Assembly: GCF_009937955.1 (NCBI RefSeq)
Contig: NZ_AP018439.1
Location: forward strand, 4,030,001-4,094,000
Origin: Undibacterium sp. KW1
GTDB lineage: Bacteria > Pseudomonadota > Gammaproteobacteria > Burkholderiales > Burkholderiaceae_D
DNA: 64,000 bases
Direction: 5' to 3'
Part shown: positions 16,478 through 33,755 of the stretch, in pieces
How the letters are laid out: each line of letters begins with the position of its first letter
Numbering within the stretch: position 1 is the stretch's first letter
Position numbers and translations under genes: made by a program
The notes under the pieces: model-generated
Told to the model about the DNA's origin: nothing
Database searches by the model: none
What the model saw: the letters and a program-made list of their open reading frames with translations, nothing else

Positions 16478-18196
16478 TCAACCCAACATGCCAGGATTAC
16501 CAGCGACGCCAATCAAACGTGGTGTATTCAGTTTGCGCGGCGTGATTTTTTTGTGGGTACGCAGCCATTGCGCAACCACGTCCCAGACTGGCTCACCTTT
16601 GGCACCTTCAGCCACTGGTGCCCAGCCAGCCACCTTATAGACTTTGCCATCTGCCAGAGGCTGGCCGTTCAGGCGCATGTCCTGTATGCGCTTGCCCATG
16701 GCGGCTGCTGGTTCTATGGCATAACTCAAACCACCAACGCGCACCATGTCACCGCCCTGCTGGTAGTAAGGATCAGGATTGAACAGGTTGTCGGCAACGT
16801 CTTCCAGTACGGTCTTGATGGCTGCGCCTGTCATTTCTGTGACAGTAGTGTAGGAATAAGTCGTGGCGGTCTGGTCCATCACATGTTCCATGGTGATGGC
16901 GCTATTCGGCAGCAGAGATGTACCCCAGCGGAAGCCCGGTGAGAAAGCGATTTCTGCATCCTTGACTTCCATGAGGGCATCGACAATCAACTGGTCAAAG
17001 CTGCCATTGAAATTGCCACGGCGATACAGCGCACCCTCGGTCACCGCCAGTTTTTCAGCCAGTTTTGCGCTGTAGGGTGCACGAATTTTTTGTATCAGTG
17101 ACTGCATGTCGGCATCCGCAGGCAGGAAGTTGGCAAACACTGGCAGCAGCTTGTACTGGAAGCCCTGAATGCGCCCTTCTTTCACATCAAAATCAAGAAC
17201 GCCGAGAAACTTGCTGTTGCTACCCGCATTGGTCACCAGGGTTTTGCCGCCGCCGTTTTCTACGATGACAGGTGCAGGCATGCCGTCGTGGGTATGCCCA
17301 CCCAGAATGGCATCGATGCCGCGCACGCGTGAGGCCATCTTGAGATCCACATCCATGCCGTTGTGCGATAGGACGACGACGACCTTCGCACCCTTGGCAC
17401 GAGCCGCATCGACTGTCTTTTGCATATTCTCTTCCTGTATGCCAAAGCTCCATTCGGGTACCAGATAGCGCGGGTTGGCAATGGGCGTATAAGGGAAGGC
17501 CTGGCCGATGATGGCGACTGGCACGCCATTCATTTCTTTCATGACAAAAGCTTCAAAGACCGGATCACCAAAATCGGTAGTCTGGATATTTTGCGCGACA
17601 AAATCGACCTTACCCTTGAAGTCATTCTCGACAATCTGCTTGACGCGCTTGTCACCGAGGGTCATTTCCCAGTGCGCCGTCATGACATTCACACCCATCT
17701 GCAGGCAGGCATCGACCATGTCCTGCCCCTTGGTCCATAGGGCCGTCGCCGAACCTTGCCAGGTGTCACCACCATCGAGCAAGAGCGCACCGGGCCGGTT
17801 GCCCTTGATGCGCTTGACCAAGGTTGTCAGATGCGCAAAGCCACCGACCTTGCCATAGGCTGCTGCCGCCTGTTCAAAGTTCAGGCAGCTAAAGGCATGG
17901 GCTTCAGGTGTATTGGGCTTGATGCCAAATTGCTTGAGCAAATGTTCCCCCACCAGATGCGGACTTTTACCAAATGCCGCACCTATGCCCAGATTGACAC
18001 TGGGCTCACGAAAATACAGCGGCAACAACTGCGCATGACAATCGGTGAAATGCATGAGGTGCACATTGCCAAAGCGTGGCAAGTCGTAGAGCTTGTCTGC
18101 AGCAGGATTAGCGATGGCAGCCTGCGCATCTATCTGCATGCCACCTGCGGCGGCAATGGCCATTACTTGTAAAAAATCGCGACGATTCAGGCCCAT
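16478..18196 (-). CDS. soxB: SoxB, sulfate thiohydrolase
   Basis: A periplasmic dimanganese enzyme of 572 residues that hydrolyses the sulfonate from the thiocysteine-S-sulfate adduct on SoxY, releasing sulfate. It starts with a twin-arginine signal (MGLNRRDFLQVMAIAAAGG). The metallophosphoesterase-like core shows LMHFTDCHAQLLPLY, LLDGGDTWQGSATALW, VVVLSHNGMDVDL and DAILGGHTHDG, with a 5'-nucleotidase-type C-terminal domain after that. ATG 18196 gives the family's usual length; upstream in-frame codons fall in a repeat element. It is the last gene of soxCDYZAXB but is separated from soxX by 452 bases. The intervening structured repeat may affect its expression. Confidence 0.95.
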   Translation of the reverse strand: MGLNRRDFLQVMAIAAAGGMQIDAQAAIANPAADKLYDLPRFGNVHLMHFTDCHAQLLPLYFREPSVNLGIGAAFGKSPHLVGEHLLKQFGIKPNTPEAHAFSCLNFEQAAAAYGKVGGFAHLTTLVKRIKGNRPGALLLDGGDTWQGSATALWTKGQDMVDACLQMGVNVMTAHWEMTLGDKRVKQIVENDFKGKVDFVAQNIQTTDFGDPVFEAFVMKEMNGVPVAIIGQAFPYTPIANPRYLVPEWSFGIQEENMQKTVDAARAKGAKVVVVLSHNGMDVDLKMASRVRGIDAILGGHTHDGMPAPVIVENGGGKTLVTNAGSNSKFLGVLDFDVKEGRIQGFQYKLLPVFANFLPADADMQSLIQKIRAPYSAKLAEKLAVTEGALYRRGNFNGSFDQLIVDALMEVKDAEIAFSPGFRWGTSLLPNSAITMEHVMDQTATTYSYTTVTEMTGAAIKTVLEDVADNLFNPDPYYQQGGDMVRVGGLSYAIEPAAAMGKRIQDMRLNGQPLADGKVYKVAGWAPVAEGAKGEPVWDVVAQWLRTHKKITPRKLNTPRLIGVAGNPGMLG

Positions 18197-18259
18197 GGTG
18201 ATTTGCTTTCTGATTTTGGTGTTGCTTTGTCGTTGATTTTGACGTTGCTGTTGATTTTG

Positions 18260-18495
18260 ATGTTGTCGTTGCTTTTGACTTTGGCAGTTCCGATGTGTCG
18301 ATGCCTTTGCTGCGAGACAGAAAATGGAAAAAGAAAGGCCGCTGTTTGAGCCGCAGGCGAGTTTCGGACTTTCCCATTTTTTGACTTGCAGCAAAGGGAA
18401 CCCCGAAGGGGCAGCGACGCCTCGGTCGCCTTTCTTTGATTCCTTTCTTTGGCGAAGCAAAGAAAGGGATTCGGCTGCCGGGCCGAAACCCGGCC
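18260..18495 (-). repeat. Structured dispersed element, copy A
   Basis: Read on the minus strand this ~235-bp segment is about 75% identical to copy B at 33468-33700 and carries the same ordered stems. The stems are GCCGGG/CCCGGC (18477-18494), CCTTTCTTTG/CAAAGAAAGG (18442-18467), CCCC/GGGG (18401-18411), and a long stem CCTTTGCTGC/GCAGCAAAGG (18304-18313 with 18388-18397) enclosing AAAATGG/CCATTTT. It ends in a CA-rich tail leading into the soxB start. Stem sequences differ between the copies yet remain paired. Confidence 0.75.
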
Positions 18496-18544
18496 TGGTT
18501 CTACGAAGGGCAATCGTCTTAATCAAAACACGGCACAGCATTGA

Positions 18545-18579
18545 ACGTCACTGGATTCCTGCCTTCGCAGGAATGACGT
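18545..18579. repeat. Common proteobacterial hairpin repeat
   Basis: ATTCCTGC and GCAGGAAT (18555-18574, loop CTTC) sit inside an outer ACGTCA/TGACGT pair. The GCGAAGGCAGGAATCCAG type is a widespread intergenic palindrome in Proteobacteria. It lies between soxX and soxB. Confidence 0.7.
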
Positions 18580-18617
18580 CAATATAAATGCCGTTTATCA
18601 ACCAAACCCCATCCCAA

Positions 18618-18639
18618 CCTTCCCCCTTGAAGGGGAAGG
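18618..18639. repeat. Short GC-rich hairpin repeat, copy 2
   Basis: CCTTCCCC and GGGGAAGG around CTTGAA, preceded by AACCCCATCCCAA. This is the same design as 13437-13457. It lies just beyond the soxX stop on its transcript and could slow transcription, but there is no U-tract. Confidence 0.6.
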
Positions 18640-18648
18640 AGAGCCCAT

Positions 18649-19284
18649 TCACTTATTCACCGGCGATTCCCCATCCAGCAACAAAGCCATCACATCCTTC
18701 AACTGCGCCTCAGTCAATACCCCATTATGCCCAAACCTCGGCATACGGGAACAGGCGTTATAGGCCTGTGCGTTATACAGCTTGCCCCAGGTATATTTCA
18801 CGATATCGGGGCCAGCACCACGCAGCTTGCCGTATTGGTATAGCGAAGGCCCGATATTGCCGAACGAGATTTCTGTCTTGCTCATCTGGTGGCAAGCATA
18901 GCAATTGCCGCCATTGACTGAACCCATCGCGTCTGAAGACTGCATGCCACGGCCATTCTGAGCGATTTTTTCGCCATTCTTCCAGTCGCCCATATACTGA
19001 CCATCCGCCGGATATTTAACCGTCGTGAGTTGTGCCTGTTCGAGCTTCTTGGCTGGCTTGGCTTTCAGTCCTTGCGGGTTGGCGCTGCACAGGGCCTGGG
19101 CTTCGTCCTGTTGCACCATGCGCTCCATGGTAGCCGGGCCCTTGGCTTTGAAATCAGATTTCATCATTTCCAGTGCGGCTTTGGCATAGTCTGGTTCAGC
19201 AGCAGAAACCAGTGCCGTGCTACCGATGGCTAACAGCAAGATACTGATATGGCTTATGCGTGGATTTATGCGTAAATTTTTCAT
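18649..19284 (-). CDS. soxX: SoxX, c-type cytochrome subunit of SoxAX
   Basis: A periplasmic monoheme cytochrome of 211 residues that joins SoxA to couple thiosulfate to the SoxY cysteine. It shows a signal peptide (HISILLLAIGSTALVSAAEP), the heme motif CYACH in GGNCYACHQMSKTEISFGNI, and a distal Met-containing region near SRMPRFGHNG. The extra N-terminal segment between the signal peptide and the heme domain is typical of longer SoxX variants. It starts 10 bases after the soxA stop. Confidence 0.92.
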   Translation of the reverse strand: MKNLRINPRISHISILLLAIGSTALVSAAEPDYAKAALEMMKSDFKAKGPATMERMVQQDEAQALCSANPQGLKAKPAKKLEQAQLTTVKYPADGQYMGDWKNGEKIAQNGRGMQSSDAMGSVNGGNCYACHQMSKTEISFGNIGPSLYQYGKLRGAGPDIVKYTWGKLYNAQAYNACSRMPRFGHNGVLTEAQLKDVMALLLDGESPVNK

Positions 19285-19294
19285 GCCTATCCCC

Positions 19295-20134
19295 TTAGCG
19301 TTTCAATGCAGGTGCATTCATGACCGCGCCATCGGCAGATTTTGCCAGGAACATGGTCAGTGCAGTGATGGTGTCTGACGCATAGTCAGGCACGGGGAAG
19401 CGTTGCTGGCGGAAACAGTCATTGAGTCTGTGCTGCATGGTCCTGACTTCACCTTGCGAAACGCGGTAAGCGGGCCAGGTTGAATAAGCTGCCTGGGCAT
19501 TTTCCTTGTTGTTCAGATTCGGCAAGTCTTGCAGGCGTATGCGCTGGCCATCTGCCGAGTGGCAGGATGCACAGGAAAAATCGTGGGAACCGGCGCGGTA
19601 ATAGAATATCTTCTTGCCGATTTCATAGGCCTGTTTTTCTGCCGGATGCTTGGTGCTGATCGCCAGTTTCATGCCGCGTGACTCTGCCGTCAAAAAAGAC
19701 ACCAGGGCTTCGATATCAGACGGGTTACCGGCAGAACCAAAAGGTGTTTTCACCGCTTGCTCACGTGTCAGACCTTGCAGATTCATGCGACAGTGCATGA
19801 GGCGCTGCTCCAGGTCCATGACCTTGTTGGTGTCTTTAAAATAGCGCGGCAATTCTGCATACGCACCCTTGGTCACGCCTGGGCCTTTACCCAGATCACA
19901 TTGCTCCAGCGACGCCTGATTGGGGCCAAGCTTTTTTTGCCAGAGTTCCTGGCCGCGCATTTCCCATAATTCTGCCGGATTACCATCGGCCAGCATCTGG
20001 CGGTATTTGGCGATTTCTTCAGTTGCAGAAGTTTGAGAAGCGGCTTGTGCCTTCGCAGAACCAGACATTGCACACAACGCGACACAGACCGCTAGCGGCA
20101 CGGCTTGCGCAAGTTTAAAGACAGCATATGACAT
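19295..20134 (-). CDS. soxA: SoxA, monoheme-type L-cysteine S-thiosulfotransferase subunit
   Basis: The periplasmic catalytic subunit of SoxAX, 279 residues. It has a signal peptide (LAQAVPLAVCVALCAMSGSA), one CASCH heme motif (SHDFSCASCHSADG) and a later conserved cysteine in RLNDCFRQQRFP, placed where the catalytic/heme-ligand cysteine lies in SoxA. The N-terminal domain keeps cysteines (SLEQCDLGKG, LMHCRMNLQGL) but no second CxxCH, so this is the single-heme form. The start at 20134 follows soxZ by 13 bases; the longer frame overlapping soxZ is rejected. Confidence 0.92.
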   Translation of the reverse strand: MSYAVFKLAQAVPLAVCVALCAMSGSAKAQAASQTSATEEIAKYRQMLADGNPAELWEMRGQELWQKKLGPNQASLEQCDLGKGPGVTKGAYAELPRYFKDTNKVMDLEQRLMHCRMNLQGLTREQAVKTPFGSAGNPSDIEALVSFLTAESRGMKLAISTKHPAEKQAYEIGKKIFYYRAGSHDFSCASCHSADGQRIRLQDLPNLNNKENAQAAYSTWPAYRVSQGEVRTMQHRLNDCFRQQRFPVPDYASDTITALTMFLAKSADGAVMNAPALKR

Positions 20135-20147
20135 AGTTCTTTCCTTT

Positions 20148-20459
20148 TCAGGCGATGACGGCTTCATCACTACGTTGATCACCCTTGTTGTCTGTCCAGG
20201 TAACCGATACTTTTTCTCCTTTAACACCGCCTTTGAACTTGAAGGACAAAAACGGGTCTTTGGATACAGAGGGGCCAAATTGCGCGTCCAGCACCAGCTT
20301 GTCTTTCCATTTTGCTTGCAGTGTCTTGATGAAATGGGCAGGAACAACTTTGCCTTCAAGGTCCTTGCGCTGACCTGTTTCCATATCGTGACGTATCAAT
20401 ACTTTTACCTCGACAGCTTCGCCTACAACTGCCGCCCGAATACGCATAGGATCGCCCAT
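20148..20459 (-). CDS. soxZ: SoxZ, sulfur-carrier complex subunit
   Basis: A 103-residue immunoglobulin-like protein that pairs with SoxY. The sequence runs GDPMRIRAAVVGEAVEVKVL, KVVPAHFIKTLQAKWKDKLV, SVSKDPFLSFKFKGGVKGEK, the standard SoxZ pattern. There is no signal peptide; export as a complex with the Tat-targeted SoxY is the known route. A GGAG site precedes ATG 20459. Unlike most sox clusters, soxY and soxZ are separated by 170 bases rather than adjoining. Confidence 0.92.
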   Translation of the reverse strand: MGDPMRIRAAVVGEAVEVKVLIRHDMETGQRKDLEGKVVPAHFIKTLQAKWKDKLVLDAQFGPSVSKDPFLSFKFKGGVKGEKVSVTWTDNKGDQRSDEAVIA

Positions 20460-33234: not shown

Positions 33235-33467
33235 ACTGTACGCCCATTTAGTGCCGACAATGTTTAAAGTTTTTTAGTCGCAATTATCACGTTGCTTCTG
33301 ATAAGCCATATTCGTGTTAACGTCATTCCTGCATGCTTTTGGTTGAAATCTAGAAGGTAGGCGCTTCAGTGGCATTCTTAACATACTGCAAAGTACATTA
33401 CCATCAGAATTGCATGCGGCTACGAACTTGATTCTAAAATGTCTTCTCACGTGATCGACGATTGCTG

Positions 33468-33700
33468 GTCGGGGGTAGCCCGACAGCTACATACCTTTCT
33501 TGCGTCGCCAAGAAAGGTATGCCAAAGAAGGCGCCCCAGGCGTCGTCGCCCCCTAAAGGGGGTACCCGTTTATGCGGTACAAAAAATGGGAAGATCCGAA
33601 ACTCGCTTCGCTCAAACAGCGGCTCTTCTTTTTCCATTTTCTGTACCGCACAAACGGCGCCGACACATGGGAACTACGAAAATCAAAAGCAACATCAACA
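33468..33700 (+). repeat. Structured dispersed element, copy B
   Basis: Partner of copy A at 18260-18495. The stems are GTCGGG/CCCGAC (33468-33473, 33479-33484), a perfect 12-bp ATACCTTTCTTG/CAAGAAAGGTAT (33491-33502, 33509-33520), CCCCC/GGGGG around TAAA (33549-33562), and a long stem CCGTTT and TGCGGTACA (33566-33581) pairing with TGTACCGCA and AAACGG (33642-33657), enclosing AAAATGG/CCATTTT. A CA-rich tail follows. The rest of the 33235-33755 gap shows no gene. Confidence 0.75.
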
Positions 33701-33755
33701 CAACCTGTAATCATATTGCGAACTGAAGACAATGTTCGTCGTAGTTAAGAGAACC

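Follow-up and report, generated by a model that had tools for sequence, protein, structure and literature searches.

What kind of sequence is repeated when two intergenic segments of about 235 bp, read from opposite strands, carry the same ordered series of stems? The question is raised by copies A and B in the window, by which we mean the whole stretch of 64,000 nucleotides from Undibacterium sp. KW1 that was analysed. An initial annotation of this DNA had described them as a dispersed structured element belonging to no family that it could name, with stems preserved by paired changes, and had ascribed the preservation to selection on either a folded RNA or a mobile hairpin.

The two copies and their fold

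Copies A and B lie where the annotation had put them, on opposite strands and with the same parts in the same order (Table 1). The CTTTCTT stem, the C/G stem, the AAAATGG/CCATTTT segment and the CA-rich tail are all present in the sequence, as are the arms that had been quoted for the long stem, namely CCTTTGCTGC/GCAGCAAAGG in copy A and CCCGTTTATGCGGTACA/TGTACCGCACAAACGG in copy B. Their identity, previously put at roughly 75%, amounts to 81% when averaged over the columns of an alignment of the two and to 78% by BLAST (query 39-261). Both copies fold more stably than their composition predicts, with z-scores of -3.64 for copy A (18260-18510) and, for copy B (33455-33690), -7.63 as RNA and -7.83 with DNA parameters; in each of the three cases none of 200 dinucleotide shuffles folded as well. 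The repeat unit exceeds 235 bp, since a GTCATTCC..GGAATCC hairpin module stands upstream in most of 24 aligned Undibacterium copies and the tail continues on the 3' side as variable 6-bp units, which for copy A extend to the 5' leader of a soxB-like gene.

Table 1. Positions of the parts of copies A and B in the window
Feature	Position	Strand	Evidence
Copy A structured core (solitary end)	18268..18497	-	nhmmer core model, 227 bits
R1 module of copy A (stems 1-2, including the GGCGACC stretch)	18424..18501	-	R1 covariance model, 69.1 bits
Long stem (R2 module) of copy A	18295..18410	-	R2 covariance model, 119.6 bits
Copy A long-stem arms quoted in the initial annotation	18304-18313 and 18388-18397	-	inside R2 module
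Copy A variable CA-rich tail, 6/12-bp units	18211..18283	-	Tandem Repeats Finder and sequence
Hairpin module GTCATTCC..GGAAT upstream of copy A	18554..18580	-	sequence
Copy B structured core (solitary end)	33461..33693	+	nhmmer core model, 243 bits
R1 module of copy B (stems 1-2)	33461..33536	+	R1 covariance model, 97.4 bits
Long stem (R2 module) of copy B	33553..33666	+	R2 covariance model, 125 bits
Short CA-rich tail of copy B, last letters ACAACCTG	33670..33707	+	sequence and copy alignments
Copy B upstream GTCATTCC hairpin module	33321..33350	+	sequence and alignments

Copy A is situated between genes that we take, from their sequences, to be soxX-like and soxB-like, inside an apparent sox operon (16478-20359 of the window, minus strand) with presumed soxA-, soxX- and soxB-like genes. 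The soxB-like product matches Pfam 5_nucleotid_C and the soxX-like product has no Pfam match. A 687-aa ORF (16478-18541, minus strand) runs across copy A into the soxB-like gene.

Distribution of the family

With copy B as query, the 6.69-Mb genome of strain KW1 itself (G000) returned 50 pieces at E<=10, the final few of them no better than chance, and joining the split pieces by hand left about 28 copies. Among 41 further genomes a match was found in 24, including 21 of the 24 Undibacterium relatives, and a pattern scan of named genomes gave 94 stretches, in entries bearing the titles of Undibacterium species or MAGs and in two Burkholderiales MAGs. The covariance search of related genomes that had been proposed for these repeats was carried out with two models, R1 for stems 1-2 (76 positions) and R2 for the long stem (115 positions). 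R1 matches 71 of 200 sampled Burkholderiales genomes, representing 44 of 109 genera, and R2 only 9 of the 200, the KW1 genome being included in both counts. The 5' part of the repeat is thus widely common, and the long stem elsewhere differs in sequence and keeps its position in the units that were read. One end from elsewhere in the family folds with a z-score of -3.44.

A comparison with Rfam, likewise proposed, gave no match (none in the window at the gathering score and none for seven loci at E<=0.1), and no known element end was recognised, IS databases lying outside this comparison. No paper naming such an element was found in the literature covered, which leaves out preprints and most subscription papers. 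Copy B has no match among phage and plasmid records, and an end from another genus gave a single weak Variovorax match among plasmids (31% of the query) and none among phages. On viral contigs two stretches with the R1-type pattern and none with the long-stem pattern were detected; both receive full R1 model matches and one of them (L301) an R2 model match as well, and the element is therefore rare rather than absent on such contigs.

Covariation and selection on the fold

For the study of the fold, 177 full-length hits were reduced to 159 distinct sequences and these to 43 representatives at <88% identity. The alignment used has 42 rows, consisting of copy B, copy A (which replaces the row for its own locus, L020) and 40 other representatives, with L204 and L206 left out. 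RNAalifold predicts 43 pairs for this alignment, 21 of which have changed on both sides. Of 1800 pair cells, 97.8% are paired against 87.8% after shuffling, and both sides have changed in 178 cells against 54.3, values that none of 500 shuffles reached, in a test that ignores the relatedness of the copies and takes its structure from the alignment being tested. When the 3' partner was shifted by 1-3 columns, only 38.7-54.4% of cells remained paired; a weaker measure, the number of further pair types, was matched by 22 of the 500 shuffles. The arms of individual copies, 149 of the 159 being parsed, tell the same story: in the representatives, pairing with the copy's own partner is 0.79 against 0.57 for shuffled partners in the lower arm and 0.64 against 0.52 in the apical arm, both beyond all 1000 shuffles, which again ignore relatedness. 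Wobble cells favour the strand as written, with 98 G-U against 17 A-C, an excess that falls to 26 against 17 when two fixed wobble positions are removed.

The proposal that stems are kept by paired changes is therefore borne out by covariation across 42 diverse copies and by arms that fit their own partners better than shuffled ones. Neither finding that the annotation had named as telling against its proposal turned up. It needs amending for the difference between A and B in the long stem, part of which is block replacement rather than stepwise compensation, as orthologs of locus A show (see below). Selection on a folded RNA or a mobile hairpin is likewise supported, and the pairs and cargo that we describe in other genera favour the mobile hairpin.

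The same covariation and strand bias could be expected of a structured RNA element, for example a terminator, an mRNA-stability element or a leader, selected at the level of RNA and repeated because it is useful at the ends of genes. Its genomic setting is in keeping with this: of 120 crudely called contexts, 52 have convergent genes on either side and 9 have divergent genes (an ORF spans the copy at 15 further spots), and old copies have been retained at orthologous sites, including copy A in its sox-like operon. We nevertheless regard an RNA element as unlikely. It has no Rfam family and no fixed link to one type of gene, a U-run following the long stem is missing from the sequence of both A and B, and the convergent pairing around cargo would be unexpected for a regulator.

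How copies change at orthologous sites

At locus A, five relatives have the element at the same site. Stems 1-2 are nearly constant among these orthologs; variation in stem 3 and the long stem comes in blocks, with both arms swapped together. Four relatives at a greater distance lack the element and have in its place a short gap that is too diverged for mapping of the junction. At locus B the element is found in G043 and G051, its 5' part without the core is retained in G048 and G019, and G004 gives no alignment across the site. At the tip of its long stem, L019 has a loop insert that its ortholog L184 lacks. Block exchange, internal deletion and loop insertion therefore all act on these repeats and explain part of the difference between A and B. 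We have here a case of real covariation in a repeated hairpin that owes part of its spread to the exchange of blocks among copies, which calls for caution when RNAs are sought through covariation.

The loop insert at this tip, present in some copies (L019, L021, L023, L024 and those at other loci), includes a CGCTTGCAAGCG palindrome.

Most of the copies fetched from G000 are orthologous to copies in its close relative G043. Because most are thus old and common to both genomes, recent movement is not seen. Five G000 copies are without a counterpart among the fetched G043 loci. At L027, 404 bp in G000 correspond to 6 bp in G043; opposite L016, L022 and L024, G043 has 148, 388 and 495 bp, respectively, of other sequence with other repeat modules, and only one flank of L021 could be located. 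Conversely, the G043 copy L199, bordered by a CGTCRYTCC hairpin module on its 5' side and ending after AACGTCAATG on its 3' side, faces a 34-bp gap in G000. A third genome, a MAG, also has this copy (L032), so its absence from G000 may be a loss. The MAG locus L044, compared with L074, is another present/absent site. No clear target-site duplication was found at the present/absent sites: the L199/L221 junction is compatible with a 3-bp AAT repeat or with a microhomology deletion, and L027 and L044 have no clear repeat.

Much of this could have been left behind by an old intergenic mosaic, comparable to the NIMEs of Neisseria, that has spread by homologous exchange, has no mobility of its own today and has had its palindromes sharpened by template switching. 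The block-swapped alleles at locus A, the internal deletion at locus B, the loop insert gained or lost between L019 and L184, and the other modules that G043 has in place of a clean gap opposite L016, L022 and L024 all fit such an origin. The short gaps facing L027 and L199, of 6 and 34 bp respectively, fit it poorly, as do three features of the family in other genera, that is, strict convergent pairing in many of them, two separated size classes and single-gene cargo, and we think it improbable that a mosaic accounts for the whole.

Convergent pairs and their spacers in Undibacterium

Where two copies are neighbours within 1.5 kb at the Undibacterium loci, they mostly face one another. A hand count gave 31 convergent cases in 36, with four in the order - - and one in the order + +; this count includes orthologous rows, and L026 is one split copy. 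The spacer of one orthologous pair measures 93 bp in G051 and 614 and 545 bp in G000 and G043, respectively, where it includes a 97-aa ORF with five database relatives, the two named ones being from Undibacterium. In G019 the spacer of the same pair (L287, between 1349 and 1748) is 398 bp long and consists mostly of a GGGGTT hexamer array, an expansion of the tail unit, with a run of N, which could hide sequence; no ORF was seen in this spacer or in that of G051. At L015 (1503-1778, G000) two copies are fused head to head, apparently through recombination of a left half with an inverted copy.

Four Undibacterium species have an orthologous pair enclosing a gene that we read, from its sequence, as enoyl-CoA-hydratase-like and that may be either cargo or a resident; given this gene, the candidate identification of these four pairs as a transposon was rejected.

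Convergent units and passenger genes in other genera

R1 hits were listed in 25 R1-positive genomes that were chosen non-randomly, by number or score of hits, and of which the first five were taken because pairs had already been seen there. At least 304 R1 hits are listed across these genomes, with 8 more outside the count. Among 79 neighbouring hits no more than 2 kb apart, 68 are convergent, 8 are in the order - -, 2 are + + and 1 is divergent. The 12 R1 hits of G109 make up six pairs; six of the 25 genomes (G137, G119, G084, G061, G191 and G074) have no convergent pair. The 68 convergent units fall into two size classes with none between, 53 of 230-768 bp and 15 of 1114-1898 bp, and the 2-kb limit omits longer units, such as stretches of 2.5 and 4.0 kb (L273 and L275) that were read and left uncounted.

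Each of the 15 long units was read, as were 16 of the 53 shorter units. The short units so read have no ORF longer than 126 aa, and such ORFs as were found in them mostly run through the ends. In 14 of the 15 long units there is one main ORF of 153-343 aa that is not a transposase (L247 has an additional small second ORF, and the cargo of L248 was scanned as 300 aa). The fifteenth, L291 (555-2378, G220), has an IS481-type transposase gene by Pfam that is located inside one end, and we read it as a later insertion into that end. Six of the 14 cargo proteins match Pfam above the cut-off (DUF6988/DUF5677, methyltransferase, macro domain, Mrr, HNH_2 and PEP-CTERM), one matches only below it (FG-GAP) and seven have no Pfam match. 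PADLOC models match six of the 14, a raw count from which we claim no enrichment for defence; three of these matches are partial (RTasPDDEXK, DarG and mad2), and the full ones are to an Mrr-type IV enzyme (E=2.4e-89), an HNH protein (8.5e-29) and PDC-S52 (1.8e-20).

Single short genes of this sort, which in 8 cases of 14 fail to reach the Pfam cut-off, bring integrons to mind, and the long units might be gene cassettes of integrons inserted into or among repeats, with ends unrelated to the cargo. The relatives of two cargo proteins would suit that origin: the 175-aa protein has 1153, one of them at 68% identity and named as from a Verrucomicrobiota MAG, and the 165-aa protein has 488, many of the 120 listed each time being on contigs of <5 kb. 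A simple search for attC core sites found no pairs in the inner parts of the 14 units, a weak test given a mean of 0.74 in shuffled sequence, and the ends form inverted pairs around the gene; an integron origin of the cargo was accordingly rejected, and we hold it to be very improbable.

Other palindromes (GTCATTGCGAGC.., CCGTTCGT..CTGAGC.. and CCCTCTCCC..), which we take to belong to widespread bacterial families, were seen beside or inside units at L249, L254, L255, L257 and others, as if repeats cluster.

Search for an enzyme or a parent transposon

No enzyme serving the ends was found. The 12 Y1_Tnp loci of the KW1 genome have no core copy within 1.5 kb and no R2 match, their single marginal R1 match being one of 25 bases at L156 (E=0.032), and a RAYT neighbourhood is thus not supported in this genome. 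As for a parent transposon with the same ends, none of the 15 long units, a small sample, is a transposase flanked by intact ends. A copy at L073 (5605-6354), in a region matching the flank of a G000 Y1_Tnp locus (L157, 2965-3038), is absent at the G000 site, and the correspondence may be due to chance.

A proposed non-autonomous element with folded ends

Our best explanation, to which we would give an even chance, is that A and B each represent a solitary end of a REPIN/MITE-like element that is non-autonomous, has large inverted ends that fold, can hold a passenger gene and is served by an enzyme in trans. We take them as solo ends because the arrangement matches the logic of REPINs. A complete unit, such as those found in other Burkholderiales, would consist of two multi-hairpin ends of about 240 bp facing each other with their tails inward and, between them, a short spacer or one passenger gene. 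The whole would move as a unit. RAYT and IS200/IS605 enzymes recognise a folded single strand of DNA, and the fold and the strand bias suggest that the enzyme acting here in trans would do the same. Solo ends would arise by the decay or deletion of one end.

The points in favour of such an element are the covariation, the copy number and wide distribution, convergent pairing in most of the genomes examined, single-ORF cargo, the presence/absence sites, the turnover of a spacer ORF at one orthologous pair and the strand bias. Against it stand the missing enzyme, the want of a clear target-site duplication, the 6 of 25 genomes without a convergent pair, the age of most copies, the possible loss at L199 in G000, the shrinking of the G-U excess and the use of shuffles that ignore relatedness, and no transposition event was seen in the genomes compared.

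More tentatively, and with the chances against it, the units could represent a gene-cassette system of the Burkholderiales that is separate from integrons, in which two large folded inverted ends would remain fixed as a unit and single genes, several matching defence families, would be gained, lost or exchanged by an enzyme. Our main explanation, if right, would join REPIN-like folded doublets with gene cargo, two things usually kept apart, and add a further route for the shuffling of single genes in the Burkholderiales, with a mechanism that could be tested through the enzyme recognising the folded end.

Comparison with known systems

We do not claim membership in the REPIN, MITE, mobile insertion cassette or integron families; the likenesses are nonetheless instructive. 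Integron gene cassettes are single, exchangeable small genes with a folded single-strand recombination site, features that recall the long units, which differ in having two inverted ends per gene, in being dispersed and in giving no attC-like core pairs in the simple search. The intergenic mosaic elements of Neisseria, with dRS3, are modular intergenic repeats in which ATTCC..GGAAT-type hairpins stand beside other modules. As to flanking in the present family, a GTCATTCC..GGAAT hairpin precedes most of the 24 aligned Undibacterium copies and a related palindrome stands on either side of L249; other units have other outer palindromes. To our knowledge, no convergent cargo units have been described for the Neisseria elements and the core fold is not common to them.

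Mobile insertion cassettes hold a passenger gene between the ends of an element. The likeness to these cassettes, which are named in PMC6542083, lies in a passenger gene between inverted ends without a transposase, as found in 14 of the 15 long units; the difference lies in the multi-hairpin ends and in there being no recognised parent insertion sequence. MITEs, as defined in PMC3116915, are similarly non-autonomous, small and intergenic with inverted ends, and the present units depart from them in that their ends are far longer and folded and neither a parent transposon nor a clear target-site duplication has been identified.

There are parallels also with REPINs and the REP-RAYT system, for which the same paper (Bertels and Rainey 2011, PMC3116915) proposes the inverted doublet as the unit and derives singlets from doublets, and which offer dispersed extragenic palindromes, singlets as decayed doublets, hairpins in single strands and an enzyme in trans. 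The ends described here, of about 240 bp with several stems, differ from the short REPs and can have a gene between them, and no Y1_Tnp neighbour was found in the KW1 genome. Inverted doublets with a short spacer prevail among the neighbouring R1 hits of the 25 genomes, 68 of 79 hits being convergent and 53 of the units so formed measuring 230-768 bp.
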